From Candidatus Poribacteria bacterium (GTDB taxonomy: Bacteria > Poribacteria > WGA-4E > GCA-2687025), in assembly GCA_028818695.1 (NCBI GenBank), contig JAPPNK010000026.1:199164-263163 (forward strand): 64,000 nt of DNA, written 5' to 3'. Under the pieces are notes generated by a model. That model had not been told where the DNA came from and did no database searches. It saw only the letters and a program-made list of their open reading frames with translations. The first letter of the stretch is position 1. Every line of letters starts with the position of its first letter. Below are positions 47,255 through 52,041 of this stretch, piece by piece. Made by a program: the position numbers and the translations under genes.

Positions 47255-47758
47255 TCAATCGAAACCGATCTTCTCCAGCGCCCTCTCTATGAAACCTTCT
47301 TTTGGCGGGGAAGCTTCTATGGAGCCTGTCGGTATGCCGAGAATCTTCATCAACTTTTCCGGCAACTTGATCTGATTCATATGCGATTCCAGCTCCTCAA
47401 GCTCCTCCATTTTGATATGAGCAGGCAGGTTTTCTAATGAGAGCTGGTATGAAGCGATGCTCTCTAAAAAGCGCTCCTGTAGCTTTTCAACCCGCTCTCG
47501 GCGGGTCAATTTTTCTAGGTTCAGCTCCTTGTTATACCGCTTCAATTCCTCGCCGACTGCCGACATCGTTTTTCTGACATGCTCGGCGGCGGAGTTGGAA
47601 GGAAATCTGGCTTTGACCTCATCGCCAAACTGGACGACCTCGTCCACCGCGGCGTCAAACCGCTGTGTAAAGTAATGGTCGCTGTAAACATAATAAAACG
47701 CGCCTAATACCGCCAGGGCTGCGGCAGCCAGAAATGCGAACATGCCTTTGCGAAGCAT
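47255..47758 (-). CDS. Membrane-anchored helical protein, family copy C
   Basis: The 167-residue protein has an N-terminal signal anchor (FAFLAAAALAVLGAFYYVY) and an otherwise helical, charged ectodomain. Shared with the next two genes upstream is the pattern V-x-x-F-G-(D/E)-x-(V/I/L)-x-x-R-(F/Y) followed by GEELKRYNKEL..L...ERVEKLQERF. AAGGAGGTACCA before the ATG is a textbook ribosome site. It is the last of three paralogous genes on one strand. I do not recognise the family. Confidence 0.65.
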   Translation of the reverse strand: MLRKGMFAFLAAAALAVLGAFYYVYSDHYFTQRFDAAVDEVVQFGDEVKARFPSNSAAEHVRKTMSAVGEELKRYNKELNLEKLTRRERVEKLQERFLESIASYQLSLENLPAHIKMEELEELESHMNQIKLPEKLMKILGIPTGSIEASPPKEGFIERALEKIGFD

Positions 47759-47779
47759 TGGTACCTCCTTGAAGTCTCC

Positions 47780-48463
47780 TCACCAACTGCTAAGATCGAA
47801 CTGGACGTCCAGCGTCGCGAACAGCTTGCTCGGCAGGTTCTCGGAGGCGTATCGGGCGAATTCCATCAGCGACTGCTCCATTTCAGGATTGTTCCGCGCC
47901 TCCGCATGATCGATTTCGGGCCGTTCAAGGTCTTGGATCGCCCGCTCCAAACGAGTCTTCAACTTCGCATGGCGATCCGAATGCGGCAGATTCTGTCGGC
48001 GCAGCTGCGCGTCATACAACGCCAGAGCGTCCGCAGACTTGGCGATGTGGTCGCTCACCGTCTCTGCATAGGGAATGTTCTGAAAACGCTCTTTCAGGTT
48101 TTTTCCAAAAGCTAGGAATTCGTCAATCCCCTCCGTCAGCTCCGCCGTGAACGGGTCGGCGCTCTCCGCTTGCGGCGCTTCAGGTTGAACAGGCTCCTCT
48201 TCATTTCCGTCTTGCGCTGCCGCCTCGTCTTCTTGAGAAGCTTCTTCTTGCGCTTCGTTTGGCTGTTCCCGTTGCGCTCTGTCTGTCGTTTCATTCGGGG
48301 TTGTCCGCTCGGTCTGTTGTTGCTGAACGCGCGGGCTTTGCCGCTCTGTCGTCAAGCCGTTTTCAGATTCGTCGTCAGAACCGCCGCCAATGACAAAATA
48401 CAGAACCGCAAACGCCCCCAATACCGCCGCCGCAACAACAACGATCAACGCATTTAGACGCAT
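47780..48463 (-). CDS. Membrane-anchored helical protein, family copy B
   Basis: The 227-residue protein has a signal anchor (ALIVVVAAAVLGAFAVLYFVI), a Gln/Glu/Asn-rich linker of about 80 residues, and the shared helical domain (EGIDEFLAFGKNLKERF ... LALYDAQLRRQNLPHSDRHAKLKTRLERAI), ending in a C-terminal segment LPSKLFATLDVQFDL. The linker is poorly conserved in length compared with copies A and C. GAGGAGG precedes the ATG. Gaps to its neighbours are 21 and 35 bp, so the three genes form one operon. Confidence 0.65.
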   Translation of the reverse strand: MRLNALIVVVAAAVLGAFAVLYFVIGGGSDDESENGLTTERQSPRVQQQQTERTTPNETTDRAQREQPNEAQEEASQEDEAAAQDGNEEEPVQPEAPQAESADPFTAELTEGIDEFLAFGKNLKERFQNIPYAETVSDHIAKSADALALYDAQLRRQNLPHSDRHAKLKTRLERAIQDLERPEIDHAEARNNPEMEQSLMEFARYASENLPSKLFATLDVQFDLSSW

Positions 48464-48498
48464 GGACGCCTCCTCAGCGTTTCTTTCATGACTCGCAA

Positions 48499-49080
48499 TT
48501 AAAACCCATATTTGATCTCCAGAACCGCGCGCAGCTTTTGGGGTCCTGGCTTACGAAGATGTTCGTTCAATTCGTCATACAGCCGCAGCGTTTCAAAATC
48601 GATCTCCGGATTCTGAGACAGCTGCGCGATGTCGATGAAAAGCAAGGAGCGATGTTTGCGGTGCGTCTCTTTATAATGCGCCCGCAGCGCGGCAATCCGT
48701 TTCTCAAGCGGCATCTCCTGTTCGCGCAGCTCGGCGTCGTACCGCCTCACTTCTTCGCCGATTTTGACGAACGATTCGCCAAACTTTTTCGCGTCCGGCA
48801 GCGAGGAGTAGCGGCTCAGAATCTCCTCGCCGTACTGAATAAACTCTTGGACCGCCTCTTCCAGCGCGGCTGGATATGTCTCCAGCGTGTAGGCGGGCGG
48901 AGCGGGGGCGGGAGCGGGCTTCGGCTCTGCCGGCTGTTGAGTTGGGGCGGGCTGCTCGGTTGGCGCCGGCGTATCGATTTCGGGCGATGTCCCTAACGTT
49001 CCCCGCAAAGTGTAATATGCCGCCGCAAGAGCCGCCAACGCCAGCGCCGCCAAACCGGCGATCAATATCTTCCGTCTCAC
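48499..49080 (-). CDS. Membrane-anchored helical protein, family copy A
   Basis: The 193-residue protein has a signal anchor (RRKILIAGLAALALAALAAAYY), a Pro/Ala/Thr-rich linker and the shared domain (EEAVQEFIQYGEEILSRYSSL ... GEEVRRYDAELREQEMPLEKRIAALRAHYKE), then LRAVLEIKYGF. The GTG at 49080 is chosen because GGGGGA stands about six bases before it and this start aligns with the paralogues; an ATG at 49110 is in frame but has no ribosome site. It is the first gene of the three and is divergent from the OsmC gene. Confidence 0.62.
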   Translation of the reverse strand: MRRKILIAGLAALALAALAAAYYTLRGTLGTSPEIDTPAPTEQPAPTQQPAEPKPAPAPAPPAYTLETYPAALEEAVQEFIQYGEEILSRYSSLPDAKKFGESFVKIGEEVRRYDAELREQEMPLEKRIAALRAHYKETHRKHRSLLFIDIAQLSQNPEIDFETLRLYDELNEHLRKPGPQKLRAVLEIKYGF

Positions 49081-49158
49081 GCGCTTTCCCCCGTCTGTTC
49101 GACGCTGCATATGCGCCGTCTCTGGATACTTTACCCGCGCCGGCGCGCTGCGGCAACC

Positions 49159-49210: not shown

Positions 49211-49660
49211 ATGGCAGCGCAGATCAAACGACCGCCGACAACCGTCAAGGCGTACCTGACGCAGAATTTTCAGCGCTGCATCGTGAGCGCGCGGGAGCGT
49301 CATTTTGTGGTGGACGGGCCGGCATACGCCGGCGGACCGCAGGAGGCTATTCATCCGACCGAGGCGTTTCTGGCGGGCGTCGCCAGCTGCGCGTCGCTCA
49401 TGGTGGAGCGGCTCGCTAAAGCGGCGGGGTACGCGCTGCGTCAAGCCGAAGTGGAGACCTCCGCCCTTGTCATACCCGAAGAGCAGCCGAGGGACGACCT
49501 CACCCTCATCACCGAGTTGGACATGCATTTTGATCTATACGGCGTTTCCGAAGAGCAGGCGGCGGAGCTTGTTAAAACCTTCAAAGAGCGGTGACCGCTC
49601 TACGGGTGCGCCGCAGTTGCGGCAAAGCGGGTGCGCGTCCAATTTGACGCCCATTCTTGA
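49211..49660 (+). CDS. OsmC-family peroxidase-like protein, probable selenoprotein
   Basis: OsmC proteins reduce organic peroxides with a pair of reactive thiols. The first catalytic cysteine is Cys60 in FLAGVASCASLMVERLAKA. At the position of the second one the frame has TGA (49592-49594, codon 128): LVKTFKER-TGA-PLYGCAAVAAKRV; relatives normally read FK-RCPLYGT-A. If TGA is selenocysteine the protein has 149 residues, the normal length, and ends at the TGA at 49658-49660, two bases before the next ATG. If TGA is a stop, the product is 127 residues and lacks its second catalytic residue. A hairpin suited to a bacterial SECIS follows at once (49595-49630). A point mutation from a Cys codon cannot be excluded. 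Confidence 0.8.
49595..49630 (+). promoter_or_regulatory. Candidate bacterial SECIS element
   Basis: Directly after the in-frame TGA, CCGCT (49595-49599) pairs with AGCGG (49626-49630). Inside it, GCCGC (49610-49614) pairs with GCGGC (49619-49623) around the four-base loop AGTT. The loop has G in its second position and starts 20 nt after the TGA, as bacterial SECIS models require. Confidence 0.65.
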
Positions 49661-49662
49661 GC

Positions 49663-52041
49663 ATGAGCCTAGAGCCTAAGCCGAGAATCACTTGGGATTT
49701 CGGCCCCTGGGGCGGCGATCTGCGCCGTCTCTGGACGTCGAGGCGTTTTCGCGTCTGGGCGGGGCTGATCGGCGTTTGCGCGGCGGCTCTCTGCTTTGCG
49801 CCTCTGTTTAATACGCTCGGATACGAATTTTCTATAGTCGCGGGCGGAATCGCCGGACTCGCGTCCGGGTACCTCGGCGCCGCCGCGGTTGACCAGGCGC
49901 GCCGCCTGCGCCGAAATCGAAGCGTCGGCAGCCTTTTCTGCCTCGCGTGGACCCTCTCCGCGGCGCTCATCGCGGTCCCTTTCGCGCTCGTCTCGTTGAA
50001 CGCCCTGCGCGTTCACAACTGCCATTACGCCGCCGGTCTGATGTATTACGCTCTCATTCCGCTTGTGAGCGTTACGTACGGCTCGGCGGCGGGCGTCTTT
50101 TTTGGGTTATGGGCGGCGACGCTGCGGCGCGCTTCGCTGTTATGGACGCTCTGGGTTGCCGGGTCGATCGCCGCGGCGGCCGCGCATGTGTTGATTCATC
50201 CGCCTATTTTCGCCTACCACAGCCTGCTTGGGCTTGTTCAAGGAGCCATCTACGACGATGAAATGACGGCGAGCTGGACGCTTCTGGCGGCGCGCGCGAT
50301 TGCTCTCTTGACAGCGTGCGCTTTTCTGACGGCGGCATGGACCTTCCATAGCCCGCAGCGGCAGCGGCTTTCCCTGCGCGCCCTTTTTTACGGCAAACCG
50401 AAACGGCGGCTGCCGGCGGCGCTGCTGGCGTTTTGCGCCGCAGGACTTGCCTTCGGATGGATCTACCGAAGCGAAATCGGCTGGCGGCCGACGCGGGCGG
50501 CGCTCGAAGCGGCTTTGAGCGGACGGTACGACACAAAGCATTTCATCATCCGATACGACGATCTACCCTCCATACGGGACGACATCGAACAGATCGCGCT
50601 AGACCATGAGTATCGATACGATCAGCTGCGGAAATTTTTCGGTTTTGAACTGAACAGCAAAATTCGCTCCTATATCTATACAGACGGCGAGATGAAGCGC
50701 CGGCTTCAAGGCTCTAAAAATGCGCATATGGCGGATCCGTTCAATCTTGAGATTCATCTGCTGCATGATCCGTTTCCGCATCGGTCGTTGAAACATGAGC
50801 TGGCGCATCTGTTCGCGGGGGAATTTCAGCCGGTCTTCAAGTTGTCGCCCGCCGTTGGGCTGATTGAGGGCATCGCCGAAGCCGCCGCATGGGACGACGC
50901 CCGCATGACGCCGCACCAGAAATCGAAGCATATGCTTCTTGAAGAACGTCTGCCGCGCCTTAAGACGCTCATGTCGCCGGTCGGTTTCTGGCAGACGCCG
51001 TCAGGACGCTCCTATGCGGCAGCGGGTTCCTTTTCGCGCTGGCTCATTGAGGAGCATGGGATTGAGGCGTTCGGGCGCGCCTACGCCGGCGGCGACTTTA
51101 AAAAAGCGTACAACCGATCCCTGAGCGCGCTGGAAAAGGATTGGCTCTTTTTTTTGGCGGAGGTCCCGCTCAATGTTCAGCAGCGGGTGGAGGCGCAGCG
51201 GATTGCGACGCGGCTGGGCATTTTTGACCGCGCCTGTCCGCACGTTTCAGCGAATCTGCGGGCTGAGGGATGGGAACATTACGCGCGGGGCAATTACGCC
51301 AAAGCGGAGCGCGCCTTCCAAAAACTGGCAAAAATGGAGCCGAACGATCCTGAACATGCGCGGCGAATTCTCTGGGCGCAGCGGGCGGCGCATGACTGGG
51401 AGGGGTTGAAGCGGTCGGCTAGAGAGCTGTCGATGTTAAAAAATGCGGGCGTGTACCGCTTGATGGAGGCGATGTTGGCGTTTGGCGACGCCTTCTGGTG
51501 GACAGACGCGCCTGAAATGGCGCGCAAATCGTATGCGACGATCGTGGAGCGGCCCCCAGGTTCAGACCTATACCGCTCGGCGGCCGTCAAATTAAGCGCG
51601 CTGGAGCTGGACGGCGAAAGTCAGGAATGGGCGCGGCGCGGGCTGGGCGATCAGCGCCCCGAGCTCCGCATCTACGCGCTTCAACAGCTGCGAATAAAAG
51701 CGCCTGAATGGCGGTACGGCGCCTATCTGCTAGGGCGGGCGCTCTACAACGCGCGGGAGTGGGGCGGGGCGCTGGATCTTCTGAACGAAGCGGGGCGGAA
51801 AATGGAGGACAGCGAGTTTGTGTATGAAACGCTTCGGCTGCGCGCCCTTTGCCTGTATCGGCTGAATCGGCTGCATGAAGCGTCCAGCGCTTTTCAGTCC
51901 GCGGCGGACGCTTCTCCGCTTGACGCCGGCCGGCGCGCGATGATGGACTGGCATGAGCGCATTCAATGGCTCTTGAACAGACCGCCTCTTCTTGAAGCGG
52001 ACGGGCGCGCGCAAGATGTAGATAGACTCGCCGAAAACTAG
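49663..52041 (+). CDS. Membrane gluzincin-type metallopeptidase with TPR domain
   Basis: The 792-residue protein has three parts: about six N-terminal transmembrane helices (25-265), a peptidase domain, and C-terminal TPR-like repeats (about 530-780; EGWEHYARGNYAKAERAFQKLAKMEPNDP; GRALYNAREWGGALDLLNEAG). The zinc motif is HELAH in FPHRSLKHELAHLFAGEF (about residue 374), followed by EGIAEAAAW, whose glutamate fits the third ligand of the gluzincins. The sequence after it, SPSGRSYAAAGSFSRWLIEEHG-like, is common in peptidase-MA-type proteins. It starts two bases after the proposed end of the OsmC gene and is probably co-transcribed. Substrate unknown. Confidence 0.8.
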   Translation: MSLEPKPRITWDFGPWGGDLRRLWTSRRFRVWAGLIGVCAAALCFAPLFNTLGYEFSIVAGGIAGLASGYLGAAAVDQARRLRRNRSVGSLFCLAWTLSAALIAVPFALVSLNALRVHNCHYAAGLMYYALIPLVSVTYGSAAGVFFGLWAATLRRASLLWTLWVAGSIAAAAAHVLIHPPIFAYHSLLGLVQGAIYDDEMTASWTLLAARAIALLTACAFLTAAWTFHSPQRQRLSLRALFYGKPKRRLPAALLAFCAAGLAFGWIYRSEIGWRPTRAALEAALSGRYDTKHFIIRYDDLPSIRDDIEQIALDHEYRYDQLRKFFGFELNSKIRSYIYTDGEMKRRLQGSKNAHMADPFNLEIHLLHDPFPHRSLKHELAHLFAGEFQPVFKLSPAVGLIEGIAEAAAWDDARMTPHQKSKHMLLEERLPRLKTLMSPVGFWQTPSGRSYAAAGSFSRWLIEEHGIEAFGRAYAGGDFKKAYNRSLSALEKDWLFFLAEVPLNVQQRVEAQRIATRLGIFDRACPHVSANLRAEGWEHYARGNYAKAERAFQKLAKMEPNDPEHARRILWAQRAAHDWEGLKRSARELSMLKNAGVYRLMEAMLAFGDAFWWTDAPEMARKSYATIVERPPGSDLYRSAAVKLSALELDGESQEWARRGLGDQRPELRIYALQQLRIKAPEWRYGAYLLGRALYNAREWGGALDLLNEAGRKMEDSEFVYETLRLRALCLYRLNRLHEASSAFQSAADASPLDAGRRAMMDWHERIQWLLNRPPLLEADGRAQDVDRLAEN

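Follow-up and report, generated by a model that had tools for sequence, protein, structure and literature searches.

An OsmC-fold protein family with probable selenocysteine at the second catalytic position

In this work, we analyse an OsmC/Ohr-type gene of a Candidatus Poribacteria bacterium, carried on a stretch of 64,000 nucleotides (the window), and find by comparison with its relatives that the UGA at its codon 128 is almost certainly read as selenocysteine (Sec), that is, that this is a real selenoprotein gene. Together with these relatives, which we refer to as the RUPLYG family, it very probably represents a widespread and undescribed selenoprotein subfamily with selenium at the resolving position, Sec having arisen independently at both catalytic positions of the OsmC fold. 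Sec-containing OsmC proteins are known as a kind, under the motif UxxT; what appears to be new, as judged from the sequences, is Sec at the second catalytic position and its RUPLYG context. If this holds true, the effect of selenium at each catalytic position of one fold becomes comparable.

The OsmC frame starts with an ATG at 49211, contains a single in-frame TGA at 49592–49594 and closes with a second TGA at 49658–49660, and the ATG of the downstream gene follows at 49663, two bases further on. A preliminary description of the window, made from the sequence alone, had already placed an open frame of 21 codons past the first TGA and its end two bases before the next ATG, and its coordinates are accurate; these 21 codons encode PLYGCAAVAAKRVRVQFDAHS. 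Under the standard code, the gene would stop at 49594 and yield a product of 127 residues. Annotation routinely truncates selenoprotein genes, and this one would be cut to 127 residues, losing the second catalytic residue.

The encoded protein is the sole match to PF02566 in the host genome (47.2 bits, gathering cut-off 27.5). Its AlphaFold2 model (pLDDT 82.6) has the OsmC fold, with a predicted helix (H129–137) and a predicted strand (E140–148) in the part past the TGA, and matches Ohr/OsmC structures with Z scores of about 10–13 (up to 13.0), the oxidised Xylella fastidiosa Ohr (4xx2) among them. Upstream of the gene and divergent from it, a row of three small genes occupies 47255–49128 on the minus strand; their products, each with a hydrophobic N-terminal segment, are without a Pfam match and look like related hypothetical proteins.

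Table 1. Features of the putative selenoprotein gene (window coordinates) and of the host selD gene.
Feature	Position	Strand	Basis or remark
OsmC/Ohr-type Sec protein, 149 aa, TGA 128 as Sec (probable)	49211..49660	+	PF02566 match, relatives, model
Cys60 codon, Ohr/OsmC peroxidatic (Cp) position	49388..49390	+	column invariant in family and superfamily alignments
In-frame TGA, Sec128 (probable), Ohr/OsmC resolving (Cr) position	49592..49594	+	TGA/Cys family alignment
Coding extension past the TGA: rest of second catalytic helix region and last beta strand	49595..49657	+	
Apical hairpin of bacterial SECIS, GCCGC-AGUU-GCGGC	49610..49623	+	loop starts 20 nt past the UGA
selD	locus L013, G000:C35:179319-180242	minus	in-frame TGA, ECAG-U-ASK

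Overall, the case from this single sequence is weak, and it is the comparison with relatives that decides. A fold of 40 nucleotides forms both helix arms, with a stability no better than that of shuffled sequences (z = −0.20). As a control for chance, we considered the 24 likely genes of the window that end in TGA: at least 21 open codons follow the TGA in 17 of them, a SECIS-like hairpin in 7 and both in 5, so an open frame plus a hairpin in this sequence alone does not stand above chance.

Used as a lone query against sequence collections, the window protein found no relatives. Distant homologues, once aligned, proved too divergent to yield search patterns; patterns were instead made from an alignment with hand-written variants, which bear on no conclusion. 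The pattern scan of species genomes returned eight loci, seven of which are family members with 36–46% identity to the window protein, with TGA at codon 128 in one (L060, the nearest Sec relative) and Cys in the rest. Profile searches extended to three more phyla matched strongly in 4 of 395 genomes of the first, 7 of 396 of the second and 11 of 395 of the third. No family member was found on plasmids (searched at 1e-5) or, by pattern search, on viral contigs, and the 83 other genomes of the window's phylum are without a close relative of the window protein.

The resulting RUPLYG family comprises 25 distinct members, the window protein included, to which the other 24 are 33–46% identical. Codon 128 is TGA in 16 members and TGC or TGT in 9, which bears out the Cys/Sec pairing proposed for this codon in the preliminary description. 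The Sec forms are spread over at least four phyla, namely that of the window and those of G084 (labelled Deltaproteobacteria), G088 (labelled Acidobacteria) and G087 (labelled Gemmatimonadaceae). The relatives were also checked for frameshifts and further stops: in all Sec members the frame is intact on both sides of the codon-128 TGA, which is the only in-frame stop. Past it, mismatches are distributed over the three codon positions as expected under coding constraint (0.23/0.17/0.50), and stops are absent from frame 0, with 10 and 7 in the other two frames.

The peptide after the TGA had been thought to match the CPLYG pattern of the family, and it does. A profile made of Cys homologues alone gives the full frame 139.9 bits and the 127-residue product 109.8 (a gain of roughly 30 bits), whereas none of 200 frames with a shuffled tail exceeds 123.8 bits; the real tail beats every one of them and so matches the family far better than chance would allow. 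The simplest reading of the protein tree has four exchanges between Sec and Cys, at least two of which are forced by supported branches, so that the family displays Cys/Sec exchange at least twice. The branch leading to the window protein itself is long (1.71 changes per site), which makes the placement of this protein unsure.

The 45 nucleotides from the TGA onward align without gaps across the 16 Sec genes and yield a consensus stem, GGUCGC/GCGACC, capped by a four-base loop, NGUN. This loop lies 20 nt past the UGA in 16 of 16 genes; its distance and its G, first noticed in the window gene, are thus common to the Sec members. In total, 95 of 96 pair cells form, and four of the six stem pairs have changed on both sides (none or one in slid controls), counts that are not independent events because the 16 genes are related. 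When the genes are recoded with synonymous codons as a null, the summed pair run comes to 55.5 ± 6.9 and never exceeds 82 over 5,000 draws, compared to an observed 95, a contrast that looks stronger than it is for the same reason. The element thus has what is expected of a bacterial SECIS, a covarying stem of 5–6 bp just past the UGA with a small, G-containing apical loop.

The window gene has five stem pairs rather than six (49610–49614 with 49619–49623, loop AGUU). It had been described as having a two-part hairpin, of which the apical helix is conserved in relatives and covaries, but the lower helix (49595–49599 with 49626–49630), although it forms in the fold, is particular to this sequence and draws no support from relatives. 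The GU of the loop falls in a codon that specifies Val (GTN) in all 16 Sec genes, whereas 8 of the 9 Cys genes have Ala there. A SECIS covariance model gives the window site 43.2 bits and scores Cys homologues too; it was not used as evidence, as the window site is among its training sequences and it includes coding conservation. The one Cys member without this Ala (L091:1477-1938) still has a SECIS-like stem and a GU loop and, from its sequence, may be a snapshot or relic of a recent Sec-to-Cys replacement.

The host genome has the Sec machinery that the preliminary description had anticipated, with selB (316 bits) adjoining selA (552 bits), selD (348 bits) and tRNA-Sec (74.7 bits), all over their curated cut-offs, and its selD is a selenoprotein gene too (Table 1). 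Genome-wide recoding of TGA was considered and rejected: TGA ends 24 of the 55 likely genes in the window, and as a normal stop in so many of them it is not recoded throughout the genome. Among the 16 Sec-bearing genomes, the two checked for selB (the window's and that of L060) both have it over cut-off; the relatives' genomes searched (G084–G090), that of L060 and six hosts of the Cys form (G085–G090, loci L061–L066), are seven in number and all have it over cut-off. Since the Cys-form hosts tested carry selB, the change from Sec to Cys in the RUPLYG family is not simply a loss of the Sec trait.

In a superfamily alignment of 12 members, columns 60 and 128 are the only invariant cysteine columns, and the RUPLYG family shows no variation at Arg22, Arg28 or Glu51. 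Cys60, proposed earlier as the intact first catalytic Cys, is thereby upheld, its column being invariant in the family alignment as well. The peroxidatic residue of Ohr is Cys61 and the resolving one Cys125, and the two positions are close enough to bond (PMC5962072). From the alignment, the match of the model to Ohr structures and these roles, Cys60 occupies the Cp position and Sec128 the Cr position, and by this analogy Sec128 is somewhat likelier than not to act as the resolving residue of a peroxidase. Some proteins of the OsmC superfamily, YhfA among them, are without known activity (PMC5962072).

In the mechanism we propose, the SelA/SelB/SelD/tRNA-Sec system of the host would insert Sec at UGA 128, directed by the hairpin with its GU loop. 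By extension from Ohr, Cys60 would attack an organic hydroperoxide and become a sulfenic acid, Sec128 would attack this to form a Cys60–Sec128 selenenylsulfide, and a dithiol of the lipoyl or thioredoxin type would reduce the latter. Sec128 would quicken resolution and re-reduction and shield Cys60 from over-oxidation. We infer Sec incorporation itself, like the peroxidase activity, the resolving role of Sec128 and the dithiol reductant.

Two readings would deny the protein its Sec. If the TGA were an ordinary stop, the product would be a 127-residue OsmC protein without the second thiol and the last strand, a view in keeping with the common use of TGA as a terminator in the window and with a hairpin that does not exceed chance on this sequence alone. 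Yet in 16 genomes the peptide past the TGA stays in frame and shows coding bias as well as residues specific to the family, codon 128 alternates with Cys across the family, the covarying hairpin is retained, and the short product would, according to the model, miss both H129–137 and E140–148; we consider this reading highly improbable. In a source assembly of 35 contigs that is 91% complete, one might suspect an error of sequencing or assembly, or a Cys codon newly lost to a nonsense mutation, but TGA stands at the same codon in fifteen other genomes from several phyla, with intact frames on either side, and such an origin is scarcely credible. Given the spread of Sec forms over at least four phyla and the repeated exchange with Cys, we regard sequencing error, a pseudogene and a plain stop as all but ruled out.

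The remaining alternatives accept the Sec and concern its role or its kinship. In a variant of our favoured explanation, with which its probability overlaps, the roles are swapped, with Sec128 peroxidatic and Cys60 resolving. Sec is the attacking residue in several known selenoenzymes, which provides a general precedent. The swap would also suit the bonding reach between the two positions in Ohr (PMC5962072), but Cys60 holds the canonical Cp position, and the invariance of Arg22, Arg28 and Glu51 is as expected if the Arg/Glu activation of Cp were retained, and we judge it unlikely while giving it some weight. Membership of the window protein in the published Sec-OsmC family (UxxT; NCBIfam NF041052) is suggested by NF041052 being its best NCBIfam match (E = 1.2e-7) and by the Pfam domain common to both. 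It is, however, very unlikely: the window protein reaches 31.8 bits and its relatives 19.6–35.7, against a curated cut-off of 95, and three proteins over this cut-off (L097–L099, 134–138 bits) have their Sec at the other catalytic position. We favour a distinct family in which Sec128 somewhat more likely than not serves as the resolving residue.

The OsmC-like selenoprotein with the motif UxxT was reported from the Sargasso Sea and GOS (PMC1088965, PMC2398784) and is listed in Table 1 of PMC13188914; across PMC1088965, PMC2398784, PMC9312934 and PMC13188914 there is this one OsmC-like selenoprotein, and Sec at the second Cys of OsmC is absent from the 2026 inventory (PMC13188914). The three NF041052 proteins (OsmC_like_Se, OsmC-related (seleno)protein), from the phylum of G085, have a TGA at Cys1, the Cys60 column, within AFULLTQL, a match to UxxT, while their Cys2 is normal. 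From motif and model name we infer that the published UxxT is NF041052, and, so taken, it most likely carries Sec at the other, first Cys. The preliminary description had likened the window gene to the Sec-OsmC proteins of marine metagenomes; it was right in calling it a selenoprotein, but the two do not appear to be of the same kind. They share PF02566, a conserved catalytic Cys replaced by Sec, a predicted SECIS just past the UGA and the existence of Cys homologues, and differ in the site of Sec, which is Cys1 in the NF041052 members found and Cys2 (RUPLYG) in the window family, whose window member combines Cys60 with U128. The 2026 inventory assigns selenoproteins that differ in Sec position or motif to separate subfamilies (PMC13188914), and by this criterion the window family stands apart from UxxT.

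Another OsmC-like gene, in two genomes of the same class as the window's (L047:1336-1797 and L051:1330-1788), has a TGA at Cys1 (STAGULTGTF ... CPVARTL). Like the window protein, it has an OsmC domain and a single in-frame TGA, which falls on a catalytic Cys position, and its host has selB; unlike the window protein, it has the putative Sec at Cys1 with Cys2 intact, shares 11–15% identity with it and matches NCBIfam OsmC models weakly (TIGR03562). By its sequence, it is possibly a further undescribed Sec-OsmC subfamily. In their sequences, the Sec-OsmC proteins otherwise traceable thus carry the predicted selenium at the first catalytic position, unlike the window family, and as Sec stands at Cys1 in other OsmC subfamilies, the fold permits a direct test of selenium at the peroxidatic versus the resolving site.

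The window protein scores 28.3 bits against TIGR03561 (Ohr, cut-off 88.85) and 19.5 against TIGR03562 (OsmC, cut-off 85.8), values so far below the cut-offs that it falls outside both subfamilies. With the Ohr/OsmC peroxidases of these models, such as X. fastidiosa Ohr (1zb9/4xx2), it has in common the fold, the Cp and Cr positions and the CP motif at the second site, whereas its Cr would be Sec.
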